A DNA stretch of 64,000 bases from Phragmitibacter flavus (GTDB lineage Bacteria > Verrucomicrobiota > Verrucomicrobiia > Verrucomicrobiales > Verrucomicrobiaceae), in contig NZ_VAUV01000014.1 in assembly GCF_005780165.1 (NCBI RefSeq), positions 62,001 to 126,000 of the forward strand. Reading direction: 5' to 3'. A program made the translations under genes and the position numbers. How positions within the stretch are numbered: the first letter of the stretch is position 1; the number at the start of each line of letters is the position of its first letter. The notes under the pieces were generated by a model. The model was not told the DNA's origin. It made no database searches and saw only the letters and a program-made list of their open reading frames with translations. Below, one piece after another: positions 31,110-37,327 of this stretch.

Positions 31110-34100
31110 TTAGCTGGCTTCGACATGGATGAGGTTTGGGGTGGACTCGGTAGTGGGTTTGGTTTTCTTCACGCCGAGCTTTTCCAGGACGACGTAGAAG
31201 ATGGGGGTGAGGAACAGGCCGAAGATGGTGACGCCGATCATGCCGGCGAAGACGGCGACGCCCATGGCTTGGCGCATTTCGGCGCCGGCTCCGGAGGCGA
31301 TCACTAAGGGGAAGACGCCGGCGATGAAGGCGATGCTGGTCATGAGGATGGGACGGAGTCGGAGACGGCTGGCTTCCAGGGCGGATTCGACGATGCCTTT
31401 GCCTTCTTCGCGGAGTTTGACGGCGAATTCGACGATGAGGATGGCGTTTTTGGCGGCGAGGCCGATCAAGACGATGAGGCCGATCTGGGTGAAGATGTTG
31501 TTGTCGCCATCGGTGAGCCAGACGCCGACCATGGCGGAGAGGAGGGCCATGGGGACGATCAACAGGACGGCGAAGGGAAGGCGGAAGCTTTCGTATTGGG
31601 CGGCGAGGACGAGGAAGACCAAGAGGATGCTGATGGGGAAGATGAGCATGCCGGTGTTGCCGACGAGGATCTTTTGATAGGTGAGTTCGGTCCAGTCGAG
31701 CACCATGCCTTTGGGGAGGGTTTCGGCGGCGAGTTTTTCCATGATGGCTTCGGCCTCGCCGGAGCTGTAGCCGGGGGCGGGCATGCCGTTAATCTCGGCG
31801 GCGCGGTAGCCGTTGTAACGCATGGCGCGGTCGGGTCCGTAGGTTTCGTTGACGCTCATGAGGGAACCGAGGGGGACCATTTCGCCGTTTTGGTTGCGGG
31901 TTTTTAAGCGGGTGATGTCGGCGGCTCCGGTGCGGAATTCGGCGTCGGCCTGGGCGATGACTTGATAGGTGCGGCCGAAGCGGTTGAAGTCGTTGACGTA
32001 AAGGGAGCCGAGGTTGATTTGCATGGTCTCGAAGATGTTGGCCAAGGGGATGCCTTGTTGTTTGGCTTTGGCTCGGTCGACTTCGGCTTCGAGCTGGGGG
32101 TTGTTGACGGTGTAGCTGGTGAAGAGGCCAGCGAGTCCGGGGGTTTGGTTGGCTTTGGCGATGAGGGCCTGGGTGGCGGTGTAGAGTTCGTCGTATCCGA
32201 GATCGGCGCGGTCGGAGACGTAGAATTTGAAGCCGCCGGTGGTGCCGAGTCCGTTGACGGGGGGCGGGGTGAAGATGGCGATGAAGGCGTCCTGGACGTC
32301 GCCGAATTCGGCTTGCAGTTGTTGGGCGATGGCGGTGCCGGAGAGTTCGGGGGTGTGGCGTTCTTCGAAGGGTTTGAGGGTGGTGAAGGCGATGCCGGAG
32401 TTGGGGCTGTTGGTGAAGCCGTTGATGGAGAGGCCGGGGAAGGCGATGACGTCGGCGACGCCGGGGTGTTTCATGGCGATCTCGCTCATGCGGCGGATGA
32501 CGGCGTCGGTGCGTTCGATGGAGGCACCTTCAGGGAGTTGGGCGAAGGCGATGAGGTATTGTTTGTCCTGGGCGGGGACGAATCCGGCTGGGACGGCGCT
32601 GAAGGATTTCCAGGTGAGGAAAAGGAGGCCGCCGTAGACGAGGAGGCCGATGGCGCTGACGCGGATGAGGCGGGCGACGCCGTTGGAGTATTGATGGGAG
32701 GCCCATTCGAAGAAGCGGTTGAAGGGTCGGAAGAACCAGCCAAAGGTTTTGTCCATGGCGCGTGAGAGCCAGTCCTTGGGGGCGTGGTGATCTTTGAGAA
32801 GGAGGGCGCTGAGGGCGGGGGAGAGGGTGAGGGAGTTGATCGCGGAGATGATGGTGGAGATGGCGATGGTGATGGCGAACTGTTTATAAAATTGTCCGCT
32901 GAGGCCGGGGATGAAGGCGGTGGGGATGAAGACGGCGGAGAGGACGAGCGCGGTGGCGACGATGGGGCCGGTGACTTCGCGCATGGCGATTTTGGTGGCT
33001 TCGACGGGGGAGTGGCCGAGGGCGATGTTGCGTTCGACGTTTTCGACCACGACGATGGCGTCATCGACGACGATGCCGATGGCGAGGACGAGTCCGAAGA
33101 GCGAGAGGGCGTTGATGGAGAAGCCGAGGGCGCTCATGATGGCGAAGGTGCCGATCAATGAGACGGGGACGGCGGCGAGGGGGATGATGGAGGCGCGCCA
33201 GGTTTGCAGGAAGATGAGGACGACAAGAACGACGAGGGCGACGGCTTCGAGGAGGGTGTGGACGACGGCTTTGATGGAGTGGCGGACGAAGACGGTGGGA
33301 TCGTAAGCGAAGGCGTAGTCGAGGCCTTCGGGGAAGTCTTTTTTGAGGACGGCCATGGTTTCGCGGACCTGGCTGGAGAGTTCGAGGGAGTTGGTGCCGG
33401 GGAGTTGGAAGACGGGCAGGCCGACGGAGGCTTTGTTGTTGAGGAGGGAACGGAGGGCGTATTCGGAGGCGGCGAGTTCGACGCGGGCGATGTCGCGGAG
33501 GAGGACGCGTTCGCCGCGGGTGCCGATTTTGATGACGATGTTTTCGAATTCTTCTTCGGTGATGAGGCGGCCTTTGGTGTTGATGAGGAGTTCGGTTTCG
33601 GCGGCGTTGGGATTGGGTTGCTGGCCGACGGAGCCGGCGGCGACCTGCACGTTTTGTTCGCGGATGGCGGCGACGACGTCGGAGGCGGTGAGGTTGCGTG
33701 AGGCGACTTTGTTGGGGTCGAGCCAGATGCGCATGGCGTAGTCGCCGGAGCCGAACAGTTGGACCTGGCCGACGCCGGGGAGGCGGGCGAGGACGTCGCG
33801 CACTTGCAGGGTGGCGTAGTTGCGGACGAAGACGTCATCATAGCGTCCATCGGGGGAGAAGAGGTGGACAACGAGGGTCATGTCCGGCGAACTTTTGAGG
33901 GTGTTGACGCCGATGCGGCGGACTTCTTCTGGGAGTTTAGGTTCGGCCTGGGCGACGCGATTTTGCACCTGGACCTGGGCTTTGTCGGGGTCGGTGCCGA
34001 GCTTGAAGGTGATGGTGAGGGTCATCACGCCATCGGTGGTGGCTTGGGAGAACATGTAGAGGGAGTTCTCGACGCCGGTGATGGCTTGTTCGAGGGGGGT

Positions 34101-34292
34101 GGAGACGGTTTCGGCGATGGTTTTGGGGTTGGCACCGGGGTAGCGGGCGGTGACGACGACGGTGGGGGGGACGACTTCGGGGTATTCGCTGACGGGGAGG
34201 AGCCAGAGGGCGATGCCGCCGATGAGCAGGGTGATGATGGAGAGGACGCCAGCGAAGATGGGGCGTTTGATGAAGAAGTCGGAGAAGTTCAT
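31110..34292 (-). CDS. RND efflux transporter, HAE1 family inner-membrane pump
   Basis: A 1060-residue AcrB/MexB-like permease. It begins MNFSDFFIKRPIFAGVLS as in HAE1 pumps, has the twelve-helix pattern with two large periplasmic loops, and retains the essential Asp pair in the fourth helix (VLAIGIVVDDAIVVVENVERN). The final helices include VLIGLAAKNAILIVEFAVKL. It exports hydrophobic compounds using the proton gradient with the periplasmic adaptor encoded upstream; an outer-membrane TolC-type partner is not in this window. A longer frame upstream would translate part of the intergenic hairpins, so I set the start at the conserved MNFSDFF. Probably in one unit with the adaptor, dehydrogenase and TetR. 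Confidence 0.93.
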   Translation of the reverse strand: MNFSDFFIKRPIFAGVLSIITLLIGGIALWLLPVSEYPEVVPPTVVVTARYPGANPKTIAETVSTPLEQAITGVENSLYMFSQATTDGVMTLTITFKLGTDPDKAQVQVQNRVAQAEPKLPEEVRRIGVNTLKSSPDMTLVVHLFSPDGRYDDVFVRNYATLQVRDVLARLPGVGQVQLFGSGDYAMRIWLDPNKVASRNLTASDVVAAIREQNVQVAAGSVGQQPNPNAAETELLINTKGRLITEEEFENIVIKIGTRGERVLLRDIARVELAASEYALRSLLNNKASVGLPVFQLPGTNSLELSSQVRETMAVLKKDFPEGLDYAFAYDPTVFVRHSIKAVVHTLLEAVALVVLVVLIFLQTWRASIIPLAAVPVSLIGTFAIMSALGFSINALSLFGLVLAIGIVVDDAIVVVENVERNIALGHSPVEATKIAMREVTGPIVATALVLSAVFIPTAFIPGLSGQFYKQFAITIAISTIISAINSLTLSPALSALLLKDHHAPKDWLSRAMDKTFGWFFRPFNRFFEWASHQYSNGVARLIRVSAIGLLVYGGLLFLTWKSFSAVPAGFVPAQDKQYLIAFAQLPEGASIERTDAVIRRMSEIAMKHPGVADVIAFPGLSINGFTNSPNSGIAFTTLKPFEERHTPELSGTAIAQQLQAEFGDVQDAFIAIFTPPPVNGLGTTGGFKFYVSDRADLGYDELYTATQALIAKANQTPGLAGLFTSYTVNNPQLEAEVDRAKAKQQGIPLANIFETMQINLGSLYVNDFNRFGRTYQVIAQADAEFRTGAADITRLKTRNQNGEMVPLGSLMSVNETYGPDRAMRYNGYRAAEINGMPAPGYSSGEAEAIMEKLAAETLPKGMVLDWTELTYQKILVGNTGMLIFPISILLVFLVLAAQYESFRLPFAVLLIVPMALLSAMVGVWLTDGDNNIFTQIGLIVLIGLAAKNAILIVEFAVKLREEGKGIVESALEASRLRLRPILMTSIAFIAGVFPLVIASGAGAEMRQAMGVAVFAGMIGVTIFGLFLTPIFYVVLEKLGVKKTKPTTESTPNLIHVEAS

Positions 34293-34317
34293 GGCGGTGG
34301 ATGGGAGGGGATGTGGC

Positions 34318-34453
34318 ACAGGCATTTTGCCTGTGGGTGGGACAGGCTTGCAGCCTGTAGGGATGGGCCGGGTGGGGATTTTGGGAAGGGAGGGGACGTG
34401 GAGACGTTCGGGACAAGCAAAATGCCTGTCTCACCCACAGGCTGAAAGCCTGT
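34318..34453. repeat. Paired inverted hairpin repeats (BIME-like) between adaptor and pump
   Basis: Four 17-base hairpins: ACAGGCATTTTGCCTGT (34318-34334), ACAGGCTTGCAGCCTGT (34342-34358), ACAAGCAAAATGCCTGT (34413-34429) and ACAGGCTGAAAGCCTGT (34437-34453). Each pair is linked by a short GGGTGG or its complement CTCACCC, and the second pair is the reverse complement of the first in order, so two head-to-head units face each other. This is the layout of bacterial interspersed REP elements. It sits between the adaptor stop and pump start, where it may influence mRNA stability. Confidence 0.7.
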
Positions 34454-34461
34454 GTCACGTC

Positions 34462-35658
34462 TTACAGGTTGGAGGCTTGTGTGACGGCGACGGAGTCGAT
34501 GGTCTCGGGGGTGACGGTCATGCCGGCGCTGACGCGTTGGAGACCGTTGATGATGATGCGGTCGGCGGGGGTGAGGCCGTCGCGGATGATGCGTTTGCCG
34601 TTGACGATGGGGCCGAGTTTGACGGTGCGATAAGCGACGGTGTTGGTGTCGTTGACGGTGAGGACGAATTTCTGGCTTTGGTTGGTGCCGATGGCGCGTT
34701 CGTTGACGAGGAGTTTGGGTTCGGCGCTGCTGATGGGGAGCATGACGCGGGCGGCGAGGCCGGGGACGAGTTTGCCGTCGGGATTGGGGAAGACCATGCG
34801 CAGGACGAGGCTGCCGGTGGCGGGATCGAGGCGGTTGTCGGAGGATTCGATGCGGCCGTGATGGGGGTAGTCGGTTTCGCCGGTGAGCTGCATGGTGACG
34901 GGGATGGCGGCTTTGTTGGTGTTGTCTTTGGCGCGGTTGATCTGGTTGAAGGTGAGCAGGGTGGCTTCGTCGACATCGGCGTAGACGTAGACGTCACCGT
35001 TGGAGACGATGGTGGTGAGCAGGGTGGCGGAGCCGGGGGCGCCGGAGATCAGGTTGCCGGAGGTGACGTAGGCACGGTTGATGCGGCCGCTGATGGGGGC
35101 GCGGACCTGGGTGTGTTCAAGGTCGAGCTGGGCGGTGGCGAGACTGGCTTCGGCGGCGAGGAGTTCGGCGCGGGTTTCGTCGAGAAGCGAGGTGCGGGTT
35201 TCGGCTTCTTCGACGGAGATGGCGCGGTTTTTGAGGAGTTCGTTGGAGCGTTGGGCGTCGCGTTCGGCGATGCGGACGCGGACTTTGGCGCGGTTGACGG
35301 TGGATTGGGCGAGGTCGAAGGCGGCCTGATACCAGCGGGGGTCGATGGTGAAGAGGAGGTCGCCTTGTTGGACGTCTTGTCCGGGGTGCAGGTTGACGGA
35401 TTGGATGTGGCCGGAGACGCGGGGGCGGACTTCGACGGTTTCGATGGCATCGACACGACCGAGGAGTTCGCGGTGTTCGACCACGTTTTGTTGTTCGACC
35501 TGGGCGACGGTGACCTTGGGGGCGGGAGATGCAGCGGCGGCAGCGGTGGCAGCGGTGGCAGCGGGTTCGCCGTTGCTGGCTCGGGCCTGGAGGATGAGGA
35601 CGGCGGCGACGAGGAGCGAGAGCACCAGGACGATGCGGAGAGATGTTTTGGTTTTCAT
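34462..35658 (-). CDS. RND efflux periplasmic adaptor (HlyD/MFP family)
   Basis: A 398-residue adaptor, start at MKTKTSLRIV. An N-terminal signal-anchor helix (VLVLSLLVAAVLILQA) is followed by an Ala-rich linker, a lipoyl/barrel-sandwich half (VSGHIQSVNLHPGQDVQQGDLLFTID), a coiled-coil hairpin (about 120-190) and the return barrel (VRAPISGRINRAYVTSGNLI), then beta-barrel and membrane-proximal domains. Length and order match AcrA-type proteins. It joins the pump encoded next to an outer-membrane channel. A longer frame upstream of this start is Ser/Pro-rich and non-coding in look, overlapping the dehydrogenase gene, so it was rejected. Confidence 0.9.
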   Translation of the reverse strand: MKTKTSLRIVLVLSLLVAAVLILQARASNGEPAATAATAAAAASPAPKVTVAQVEQQNVVEHRELLGRVDAIETVEVRPRVSGHIQSVNLHPGQDVQQGDLLFTIDPRWYQAAFDLAQSTVNRAKVRVRIAERDAQRSNELLKNRAISVEEAETRTSLLDETRAELLAAEASLATAQLDLEHTQVRAPISGRINRAYVTSGNLISGAPGSATLLTTIVSNGDVYVYADVDEATLLTFNQINRAKDNTNKAAIPVTMQLTGETDYPHHGRIESSDNRLDPATGSLVLRMVFPNPDGKLVPGLAARVMLPISSAEPKLLVNERAIGTNQSQKFVLTVNDTNTVAYRTVKLGPIVNGKRIIRDGLTPADRIIINGLQRVSAGMTVTPETIDSVAVTQASNL

Positions 35659-35710: not shown

Positions 35711-35732
35711 GGGACGCGACGCAGCGCATCCC
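35711..35732. repeat. Single hairpin between dehydrogenase and adaptor genes
   Basis: GGGACGCG-ACGCAG-CGCATCCC pairs over eight positions with one G-T pair, in the gap between the dehydrogenase stop and the adaptor start. A purine-rich run of seven Ts follows on the plus strand (about 35741-35747), but in the leftward transcription direction it precedes the stem, so an intrinsic terminator is not supported. It resembles the small dispersed hairpins elsewhere. Confidence 0.45.
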
Positions 35733-35755
35733 TACCGGATTTTTTTGATTGTGGA

Positions 35756-36511
35756 TCAGGCCAGGCCGCCGTTGACGTTGAGGAGCTCGCCGGTGATCCA
35801 GCCGGCGTCGTCGGAGGCGATGAAGGTGACGACTTTGGCGATGTCATCGGGCTGGCCGATGCGGCCGAGCAGGGTGGTGGCGACGACGTTCTTTTCCATG
35901 TCCGATCCGATAACGCCGGCGGTGTGGGTGCCTTCGGTTTCAACCATGCCGGGGTTGACGGAATTGACGCGAATCTTCCGGGCTCCGAGTTCTTTGGAGA
36001 GGACGGAGGTGATCACGTCCACGGCGGCTTTGGTGCCGGTGTAAACGGCGGTGGTGGCAAATTTGACGCTGGTGATGGTGGAGCCGATGTTGATGACGCT
36101 GCCGCCGGTTTCAGGGAAGTGTTTCACGGCTTCCTGAGTGGTGAGCAGCAGGCCGAGCACGTTGACGTCGAACTGGCGATGGAAGTGTTCGGGGGTGATG
36201 TCTTCCAAGGGGCCGAACTCGTAGACGCCGGCGTTGTTGACGAGAATGTCGATTTTACCGAAGGCGGCGACGGTTTCCGCGACGAGGCGGGTGATGTCTT
36301 CGGGTTTGGCGAGGTCGCCCTGGACGGCGACGGCTTTGCCTCCGGCGGCGGTGATTTCGGCGACGACTTGATCGGCCCCGGTTTTGCTGGAGGCGTAGTT
36401 GACGGCGACGGATGCTCCAGCGGCGGCGAGGTGCTTGGCGATGGCGGCTCCAATGCCTTTGGAGGCTCCGGTGACGAGGGCGACTTTGTTGATGAGGTTA
36501 TCGGTTTTCAT
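35756..36511 (-). CDS. Short-chain dehydrogenase/reductase (SDR), NAD(P)-dependent
   Basis: A 251-residue classical SDR. The cofactor site is VTGASKGIGAAIAKHLA at residues 13-29, LVNNAGVYEFG near 88, the catalytic Ser in INIGST, and the Tyr and Lys in VYTGTKAAVD (YxxxK) near 156-160, then SVNPGMVETE. The enzyme is complete. It resembles 3-oxoacyl reductase or glucose dehydrogenase-like members; the substrate is unknown. The gene lies between a TetR repressor gene and the RND operon, all leftward, and a copy of the TetR dyad lies 28 bases upstream of its start, so it should be repressed by TetR. Confidence 0.9.
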   Translation of the reverse strand: MKTDNLINKVALVTGASKGIGAAIAKHLAAAGASVAVNYASSKTGADQVVAEITAAGGKAVAVQGDLAKPEDITRLVAETVAAFGKIDILVNNAGVYEFGPLEDITPEHFHRQFDVNVLGLLLTTQEAVKHFPETGGSVINIGSTITSVKFATTAVYTGTKAAVDVITSVLSKELGARKIRVNSVNPGMVETEGTHTAGVIGSDMEKNVVATTLLGRIGQPDDIAKVVTFIASDDAGWITGELLNVNGGLA

Positions 36512-36538: not shown

Positions 36539-36560
36539 TAGTTGACTGTATAGTAAACAA
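36539..36560. promoter_or_regulatory. Probable TetR operator before the dehydrogenase
   Basis: TAGTTGAC-N6-GTAAACAA matches the perfect dyad near the TetR start at six to seven of eight positions per half-site and has the same six-base spacer. It overlaps the likely promoter of the dehydrogenase gene. Confidence 0.65.
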
Positions 36561-36589
36561 AAAGCTGCGAAAAAAAGGCGGGAGCCTGC

Positions 36590-37204
36590 CTAATGAGTGG
36601 ACTCAAGGCGCTTGGCACCGAGCATGTCCATGGCGGTGTCGGGAAGGGTGCGGAGGAAGTCGAGGTCGTTGTGGATGCGCGCTTGAGTAAGGCTGCCTTC
36701 GATGAAAGCGAAGAGGGATTTTGCCTTGAGCGCGGCGTCGCCGGGAGGGAGGGTGCCTTCGGCTTGGGCGTCACGGATGGCGGACTCGTAATACCGGACC
36801 TGGCGCTGGAGGAGTTCCTTCACCTTGGTGGCAATGGCTTCATCCTGGGTGCTGACTTCGGAACCGAGGGAGAAACAGGGGCAGCCGAGTATTTGACCGT
36901 GTTCTTTCTGGATCTCCACCTGGGAATCGTAGACGGATTGAAGGGCGGCGCGGATGCGCTCAAGGGGAGGGTTGGAGGCAGAGAACAGATTGTCCAACTT
37001 GGTTTTGCCGCTTTGCTGCCAGTCTTCCTCAAGGGCGGCCACGGCGAGGGTGGACTTCGAGTCGAAGAAATAATAGAAGCTGCCTTTTTTGACGCCGGCC
37101 TTTTCGCAGATGTTGTCGATGGTGACGACGCCGTAGCTGCGTTCCCAGATAAGATCCAGCGCCGCCTTTAAAAGGCGTTCTTTTGCGTCGCTGGTGCGTC
37201 CCAT
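36590..37204 (-). CDS. TetR-family transcriptional repressor
   Basis: A 204-residue regulator. The N-terminal helix-turn-helix (VVTIDNICEKAGVKKGSFYYFFDSK, about residues 25-50) is classic TetR. The ligand domain includes GCPCFSLGSEVS near 107, typical of the subgroup with a TetR_C_33/AefR-like C-terminus that responds to small molecules or thiol-reactive compounds; the CPC motif might sense redox state, which is inference. It is divergent from trpD and encoded just before the dehydrogenase-RND genes. Perfect dyads near its own start and near the dehydrogenase start point to autoregulation and control of the operon. Confidence 0.9.
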   Translation of the reverse strand: MGRTSDAKERLLKAALDLIWERSYGVVTIDNICEKAGVKKGSFYYFFDSKSTLAVAALEEDWQQSGKTKLDNLFSASNPPLERIRAALQSVYDSQVEIQKEHGQILGCPCFSLGSEVSTQDEAIATKVKELLQRQVRYYESAIRDAQAEGTLPPGDAALKAKSLFAFIEGSLTQARIHNDLDFLRTLPDTAMDMLGAKRLESTH

Positions 37205-37215
37205 GAATGGACTTA

Positions 37216-37237
37216 TAGTTTACTAGTTGGTAAACTA
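37216..37237. promoter_or_regulatory. Perfect dyad operator at the tetR start
   Basis: TAGTTTAC-N6-GTAAACTA is an exact inverted repeat 12 bases before the TetR start codon. A near copy lies before the dehydrogenase gene. Position and symmetry fit the TetR autoregulatory operator, which could also affect the divergent trpD promoter. Confidence 0.75.
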
Positions 37238-37327
37238 CAAGCGGAAATTACAATTTTCTTGAGGTCGTGATTTCGAGCAACGAAACCGGAAGTTGCGTGC
37301 GTCGATGGATTCCTTCAAGGTGGTGAT

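Follow-up and report, generated by a model that had tools for sequence, protein, structure and literature searches.

The window analysed here, a stretch of 64,000 nucleotides of the Phragmitibacter flavus genome, carries a tetR gene flanked by two palindromes of matching sequence and spacing, and genes for an SDR-type dehydrogenase and an RND pump read in the same direction behind it. This arrangement raises the question of which genes the repressor controls through the two sites and what kind of compound relieves that control. A preliminary description of the locus predicted autoregulation together with repression of a dehydrogenase-efflux operon, whose induction would be tied to chemical modification of a drug or substrate. 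The reading that we prefer, with a probability of roughly two in three, is that a cysteine-based electrophile sensor represses itself and an efflux-plus-reductase operon.

The gene cluster and its two operators

The features on which the argument rests are given below from right to left, in coordinates of the window.

37216 to 37237, no strand given: operator 1, TAGTTTAC-TAGTTG-GTAAACTA, an 8-N6-8 palindrome upstream of tetR
36590 to 37204, minus strand: tetR repressor gene, 204 aa, with TetR_N and TetR_C_13 domains, Cys33 and Cys108
36570 to 36576, minus strand: T7 run after tetR, considered as a possible weak terminator before operator 2
36539 to 36560, no strand given: operator 2, TAGTTGAC-TGTATA-GTAAACAA, between tetR and the SDR gene
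35756 to 36511, minus strand: SDR of the classical type, 251 aa, PRK07231 subfamily (238.5 bits over a cut-off of 215)
35711 to 35735, minus strand: dispersed 25-bp repeat, GTAGGGATGCGCTGCGTCGCGTCCC, in the gap between SDR and adaptor
34462 to 35658, minus strand: RND periplasmic adaptor, MexE/OqxA-like, with a start ATG chosen in this analysis
31110 to 34292, minus strand: RND permease, MexF/OqxB-like (RND_permease_1, 1452.7 bits over a cut-off of 1250), with a start ATG likewise chosen

Gene calls agree with the leftward order tetR, SDR, adaptor and RND pump given in the preliminary description and place all four genes on the minus strand, the starts used for adaptor and permease being internal ATGs within longer mechanical ORFs. 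The tetR gene is divergent from the upstream trpD. Its product scores 47.9 bits for TetR_N (cut-off 24) and 43.6 bits for TetR_C_13 (cut-off 27), and at the sequence level a palindromic site lies at its own likely promoter, as expected of the TetR_C_13 group; against the AcuR equivalog NF051457 it reaches 69.2 bits, under the curated cut-off of 247. The SDR (PF13561, 201 bits; PF00106, 183 bits) contains the catalytic motifs TGxxxGIG, NNAG and YxxxK as read by eye, and the closest solved chain is 4mow, a putative glucose 1-dehydrogenase. The adaptor scores above the subfamily cut-off of RND_mfp (245.5 bits over 94.9), but adaptor and permease score below the cut-offs of the named MexE, OqxA and OqxB models. 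The pump operon contains no outer-membrane partner, the gene past the permease lying on the opposite strand; 15 OEP-domain matches are found elsewhere in the genome.

Both palindromes occur with exactly the letters and coordinates first reported for them. Operator 1 matches the symmetric consensus at 16 of 16 positions, while operator 2 reads TTGTTTACTATACAGTCAACTA on the minus strand. With up to three mismatches allowed, the pattern of the preliminary description matches operators 1 and 2 only within the 64-kb window (shuffle mean 0.15). A genome-wide scan, which had been proposed as a check, was carried out over 5,910,933 bases in 44 contigs with the family consensus TWGTTKAC-N6-GTMAACWA, and returned two places with no mismatch, none with one and six with two. 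The flanking pair are the only unmismatched places. A backwards control pattern gives 18 hits per strand vs 8 per strand for the real one, so the two-mismatch places are background, and further operators in trans were rejected on the same count. Two sites paired around one tetR that are the sole perfect matches in the genome are not there by chance.

A likely tetR promoter can be read by eye on the minus strand at 37212 to 37240, with TTGTAG (37235-37240) and TATAAG (37212-37217) separated by 17 bp; it scores below the cut-off of a promoter scan that is tuned to E. coli. Operator 1 occupies the spacer between these hexamers, so that repressor bound there would obstruct the promoter of its own gene. 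Of 24 start-proximal operators, 10 are immediately preceded by TTG on their 5' side. For the promoter at operator 2, no −35 and −10 hexamers could be assigned by eye. The single weak hit of the promoter scan that overlaps operator 1 points rightward, toward trpD (37227-37254, TTGGTA-16-TACAAT; 0.6 expected), and the repressor could therefore also touch trpD. A terminator after tetR was rejected: the hairpin at the T7 run is no stronger than in shuffles (z 0.06) and the terminator scan makes no call there.

The operator pair across relatives

A search of genome contigs with the TetR protein yielded 104 relatives, and the analysis went on with the best 80 of these. By their metagenome-bin labels, nearly all of these best 80 belong to Verrucomicrobiota, two (L064 and L083) to Acidobacteria, and single records to Omnitrophota, Novosphingobium and Blastochloris. 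Each locus was scored against the symmetric 16-position consensus with an N6 spacer, over 120 bp before tetR and 200 bp after it, with dinucleotide shuffles as the control. Among the best 80 of 104 together with the window, a site matching at 13 or more of 16 positions lies upstream of tetR in 39 of 81 loci and downstream in 42 of 81, where shuffles predict 0.28 and 0.36, and sites of 15 or more are present at 14 loci upstream and 8 downstream, vs 0.0 by shuffles; many of the relatives are near kin rather than independent, so these locus counts overstate the number of events. Position is equally specific: across the best 80 of 104 loci, sites of 14 or more number 47 in 27,600 bp of tetR-flanking DNA vs 1 in 947,809 bp elsewhere, so that 47 of 48 sit in the 345 bp flanking tetR per locus.

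At either position, no more than about half of the 81 loci (the best 80 of 104 plus the window) reach 13/16; those that fall below are mostly from a Prosthecobacter-like group, together with loci cut by contig ends. Upstream sites of the Prosthecobacter-like group are weaker or look shifted, as in forms such as TTGAC-N-GTCTAG. In Opitutaceae (L037 6965-6990, L039, L054), the operators before tetR take the form GTTGACTA-N7-TAGTCAAC or TAGAC-N6-GTCAACTA; with this shift in spacing they look like the TAGAC-type boxes beside other TetR_C_13 regulators.

Conservation of both operator positions strengthens the predicted autoregulation and repression of the SDR-pump operon, and repression through two operators is very probable from these comparisons, which also indicate that the pair of operators long predates the P. 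flavus genome. The locus is real and its parts are ordinary; the conserved cassette is more interesting than the single locus.

The view of operator 2 as an operator for the SDR did not hold in its original form. In the two closest named relatives, both Verrucomicrobium spp. (L034 and L035) with 78% identity in tetR, the 22-mer behind tetR matches operator 2 in every letter, and the adaptor directly follows this second operator with no SDR there. Operator 2 would therefore be the operator of the pump, and the SDR a later passenger behind it. So the common layout appears to be operator, tetR, operator and then cargo, the SDR in the window having probably come to separate the pump from its operator.

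Regulator cysteines and the genes behind tetR

The regulator resembles NemR and AcuR. Among solved structures, sequence comparison puts it nearest to 3bru, with NemR (4yze) in second place, followed by PA2196; a Foldseek search with the structure model (mean pLDDT 92.9) has as its top distinct proteins PA2196, NemR and 3bru, the last being a TetR of R. sphaeroides. Cys108 aligns with the cysteine of the NemR GC motif, which we take to be Cys106 by way of a two-residue offset in chain numbering. Among the best 80 of 104 relatives, Cys108 and Cys33 are invariant (80 of 80 aligned rows for each). The position of NemR Lys175 (the partner of Cys106) is held by an arginine, Arg176 here, in all 80 of these as well; at the positions aligned with NemR Cys21 and Cys116, a conserved cysteine is absent. 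Cys33 falls within the first helix of the DNA-binding motif (residues 29-36 in the model), where the DNA-binding domains of NemR and 3bru have no cysteine.

A GC-motif cysteine is present in 3bru too, so its conservation alone does not prove electrophile sensing. Nor are the published switches of NemR transferable unchanged, because Lys175 has become Arg176 and Cys21 and Cys116 are not conserved. In the accessible portions of two reports, NemR Cys106 is described as shared by NemR homologues and crucial to how the protein responds to reactive chlorine, and Cys21 and Cys116 as required for electrophiles (PMC5297802; PMC7464077). From the alignment, a thiol switch in this TetR is likely, with a chemistry other than that of NemR.

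Two characterized regulators bear on this assignment, and a third shows a comparable release. NemR with nemA-gloA in Escherichia coli is, as here, a TetR-family protein of matching fold with a GC-motif redox cysteine, and the part of its description at hand has it controlling its own operon with an electrophile-reducing enzyme downstream (PMC5297802). Apart from the cysteine and lysine positions given above, the two systems differ in that the NemR cargo is an Old Yellow Enzyme and a glyoxalase whereas the cargo here is an RND pump and an SDR, and in that two separate operators flank tetR here. AltR, a NemR homologue from the alt thiosulfinate-tolerance cluster of Pantoea, has like the present TetR an 8-N6-8 inverted-repeat operator ending in AC-N6-GT (CAATCTAC-N6-GTAGATTG); according to the available part of that account, it is autoregulated, acts at several operators per cluster and depends on one essential conserved cysteine, Cys100, but it differs in half-site letters and cargo and its inducer is known (PMC13178969). 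DitR, as an excerpt of its report describes it, is a TetR whose two cysteines mediate the release of a transporter operon upon diamide treatment (PMC9342713). In a limited literature search, nothing relevant was found by way of a published account of the system described here.

The genes behind tetR provide a second line of evidence. Cargo was counted by tblastn on the same strand downstream of tetR in the best 80 of 104 loci: a pump lies behind tetR in 56 of 80 and an outer-membrane gene in 41, and the remaining genes are thioredoxin (10), an Old Yellow Enzyme relative (7), a nitroreductase (7), the SDR of the window within 6.5 kb (8), another SDR (4) and an Fe-ADH (2). Grouped by content, these best 80 of 104 comprise 46 loci with a pump only, 10 with a pump and a redox gene, 12 with a redox gene only and 12 with neither, several of the last stopping at a contig edge; a redox gene is present in 22 of 80, and 12 of those 22 have no pump. 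Old Yellow Enzyme, nitroreductase, thioredoxin and dehydrogenases are the set expected of an electrophile or thiol-stress regulon (cf. nemRA-gloA); the operon in the window itself holds none of the first three. The word "drug" in the preliminary description is probably too narrow, as the kin of the regulator and its redox cargo point to reactive electrophiles or thiol stress. Its proposal that the dehydrogenase modifies the drug or substrate is a sensible conjecture, which the comparisons among relatives move in the direction of electrophile stress. As a separate observation, tblastn places a small protein of ~100-123 aa just behind tetR and ahead of the adaptor in 10 of the best 80 of 104 loci (L048, L050, L051, L052, L060, L073, L087, L098, L100, L113); the L048 copy has no Pfam match.

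We propose a model whereby a TetR of the NemR/AcuR kind would bind the two 22-bp operators as dimers, repressing tetR at operator 1 from inside the spacer of its own promoter and the promoter of an SDR-adaptor-RND operon at operator 2. Reactive electrophiles or thiol-damaging compounds would modify Cys108, perhaps together with Cys33, upon which the dimer would leave the DNA and both operators would be released. The reductase/dehydrogenase and the MexEF/OqxAB-type pump would then be made, and the compound reduced and expelled. On the comparative evidence, thiol or electrophile sensing is somewhat favoured; a direct action of the SDR on the inducer is doubtful.

The same operators and autoregulation would be expected of an ordinary ligand-binding multidrug repressor of the TetR family, in which a non-reactive inducer occupies the pocket and Cys108 is structural. 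The pump homologues are indeed of the multidrug MexEF/OqxAB types, the regulator scores with AcuR-like models (AcuR-like regulators have a small-molecule ligand), and 46 of the best 80 of 104 loci have a pump with no redox gene detected. Two cysteines invariant in 80 of 80 rows (best 80 of 104) speak against such a repressor, however, and the 12 loci that pair the regulator with redox enzymes and no pump are hard to fit to drug efflux, making this alternative rather unlikely.

Taking the electrophile sensor as the preferred reading, one may tentatively see in these loci a phylum-wide thiol-switch regulon of Verrucomicrobiota reaching Acidobacteria-labelled bins, in which a fixed two-operator cassette is combined with swapped cargo (pump, pump plus reductase, or reductases alone) and with a switch that would differ in chemistry from that of NemR because the lysine partner is always arginine. 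What the analysis adds, for a regulator conserved across a phylum in which regulation has been little studied, is an operator consensus grounded in comparative counts together with the prediction of a sensor cysteine. MexEF-type pumps would thereby be linked with electrophile stress and not with drugs in themselves. If this is true, the natural purpose of these pumps becomes directly testable.

Linkage of the SDR to the regulator and the pump

An SDR of ~60% or greater identity is located near tetR in 12 of the best 80 of 104 loci, one of which (L042) has a 23-residue end piece only and two of which (L098, L113) have the SDR upstream. It stands at the tail of the pump operon in L036 and L067, where it overlaps the RND stop by 4 bp, while in L037, L039 and L041 a thioredoxin gene stands between tetR and the SDR and no pump was detected. 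Within 300 bp before the SDR, none of the 12 loci that carry it (L042 with its end piece only) has a site of 12 or more, and at 19 unlinked SDR loci the sites of 12-13 fall mostly within the SDR or TetR coding span. An operator of its own upstream of the SDR wherever it is located was accordingly rejected, none being present in the 12 tetR-linked loci. The SDR, lacking its own operator in relatives, would thus be controlled by operon membership, and co-transcription with the pump is predicted in the window.

Of 67 Verrucomicrobiaceae genomes, 14 contain a match to the SDR at E 1e-70 or better, and none of these matches apart from that of the window is at the tetR place. The closest kin of the window SDR (82% and 77-78% identical; L119, L120) are unlinked to this tetR and form with it a clade of three (support 100/99). 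Both are immediately preceded by another TetR, of the TetR_C_13 type (L119 1067-2744, L120 1070-2747) and 28% identical to that of the window, with TAGAC-type inverted repeats before it (TTTAGACC-N4-GGTCTAAA) and after it (TAGACGAC-Y-GGTCTA): the same layout is built here from another regulator. A TetR lies within ~2 kb at 6 of the 19 unlinked SDR places and is absent from that distance at 13; about 0.12 would be expected by rough arithmetic from 58 TetR_N matches in 6 genomes totalling ~43 Mb, the six places representing perhaps two or three independent events. The SDR family is, on this count, recurrently found with TetR regulators. At L121, an OsmC-like gene then follows the SDR.

These data bear on whether the SDR has any functional tie to efflux or is an unrelated passenger whose arrival between operator 2 and the adaptor was accidental. 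Such an accident would account for its absence from that place in L034 and L035 and for nearest homologues that are unlinked to this tetR; these unlinked homologues and the 13 of 19 unlinked copies with no TetR nearby also weigh against the preferred reading. An accident would not explain why the family stands beside this tetR in 12 of the best 80 of 104 loci, in several positions, or why 6 of 19 homologues elsewhere in the family Verrucomicrobiaceae adjoin another TetR vs ~0.12 expected, and we consider it unlikely.

The 98-bp gap between SDR and adaptor contains the 25-bp repeat and a hairpin stronger than in shuffles (z −2.88). The repeat is found at 16 places in the genome with up to three mismatches (control 0), some copies being inverted pairs ~100 bp apart, and is thus a REP-like dispersed element. 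That operator 2 controls the SDR only, with a separate pump promoter in this gap, is unlikely: the repeat and its hairpin would suit such a division, but no operator was found in the gap, a promoter scan (tuned to E. coli, and blind to the likely tetR promoter as well) gives no sigma-70-like site there, and in close relatives operator 2 directly precedes the pump. Several inverted ACAGGC...GCCTGT copies between adaptor and permease (34270-34480) look like a second dispersed repeat.

Two other pump systems come close to the arrangement in the window. MexS-MexT-MexEF-OprN of Pseudomonas aeruginosa has the pump type found here; its activator MexT belongs to the LysR type, and MexS is not known to be an SDR like the one in the window. 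In the available part of one report, MexS is an oxidoreductase believed to remove toxic metabolites that induce MexEF-OprN (PMC10848761). SmeU1-V-W-U2-X of Stenotrophomonas, in the portion of its account that could be consulted, differs in its regulators (the LysR-type SmeRv and AzoR, with no TetR) and in having its own outer-membrane gene, but as in the window its SDR genes share an operon with a MexEF-like RND pump, and its induction is linked to superoxide via SoxR (PMC12189255).
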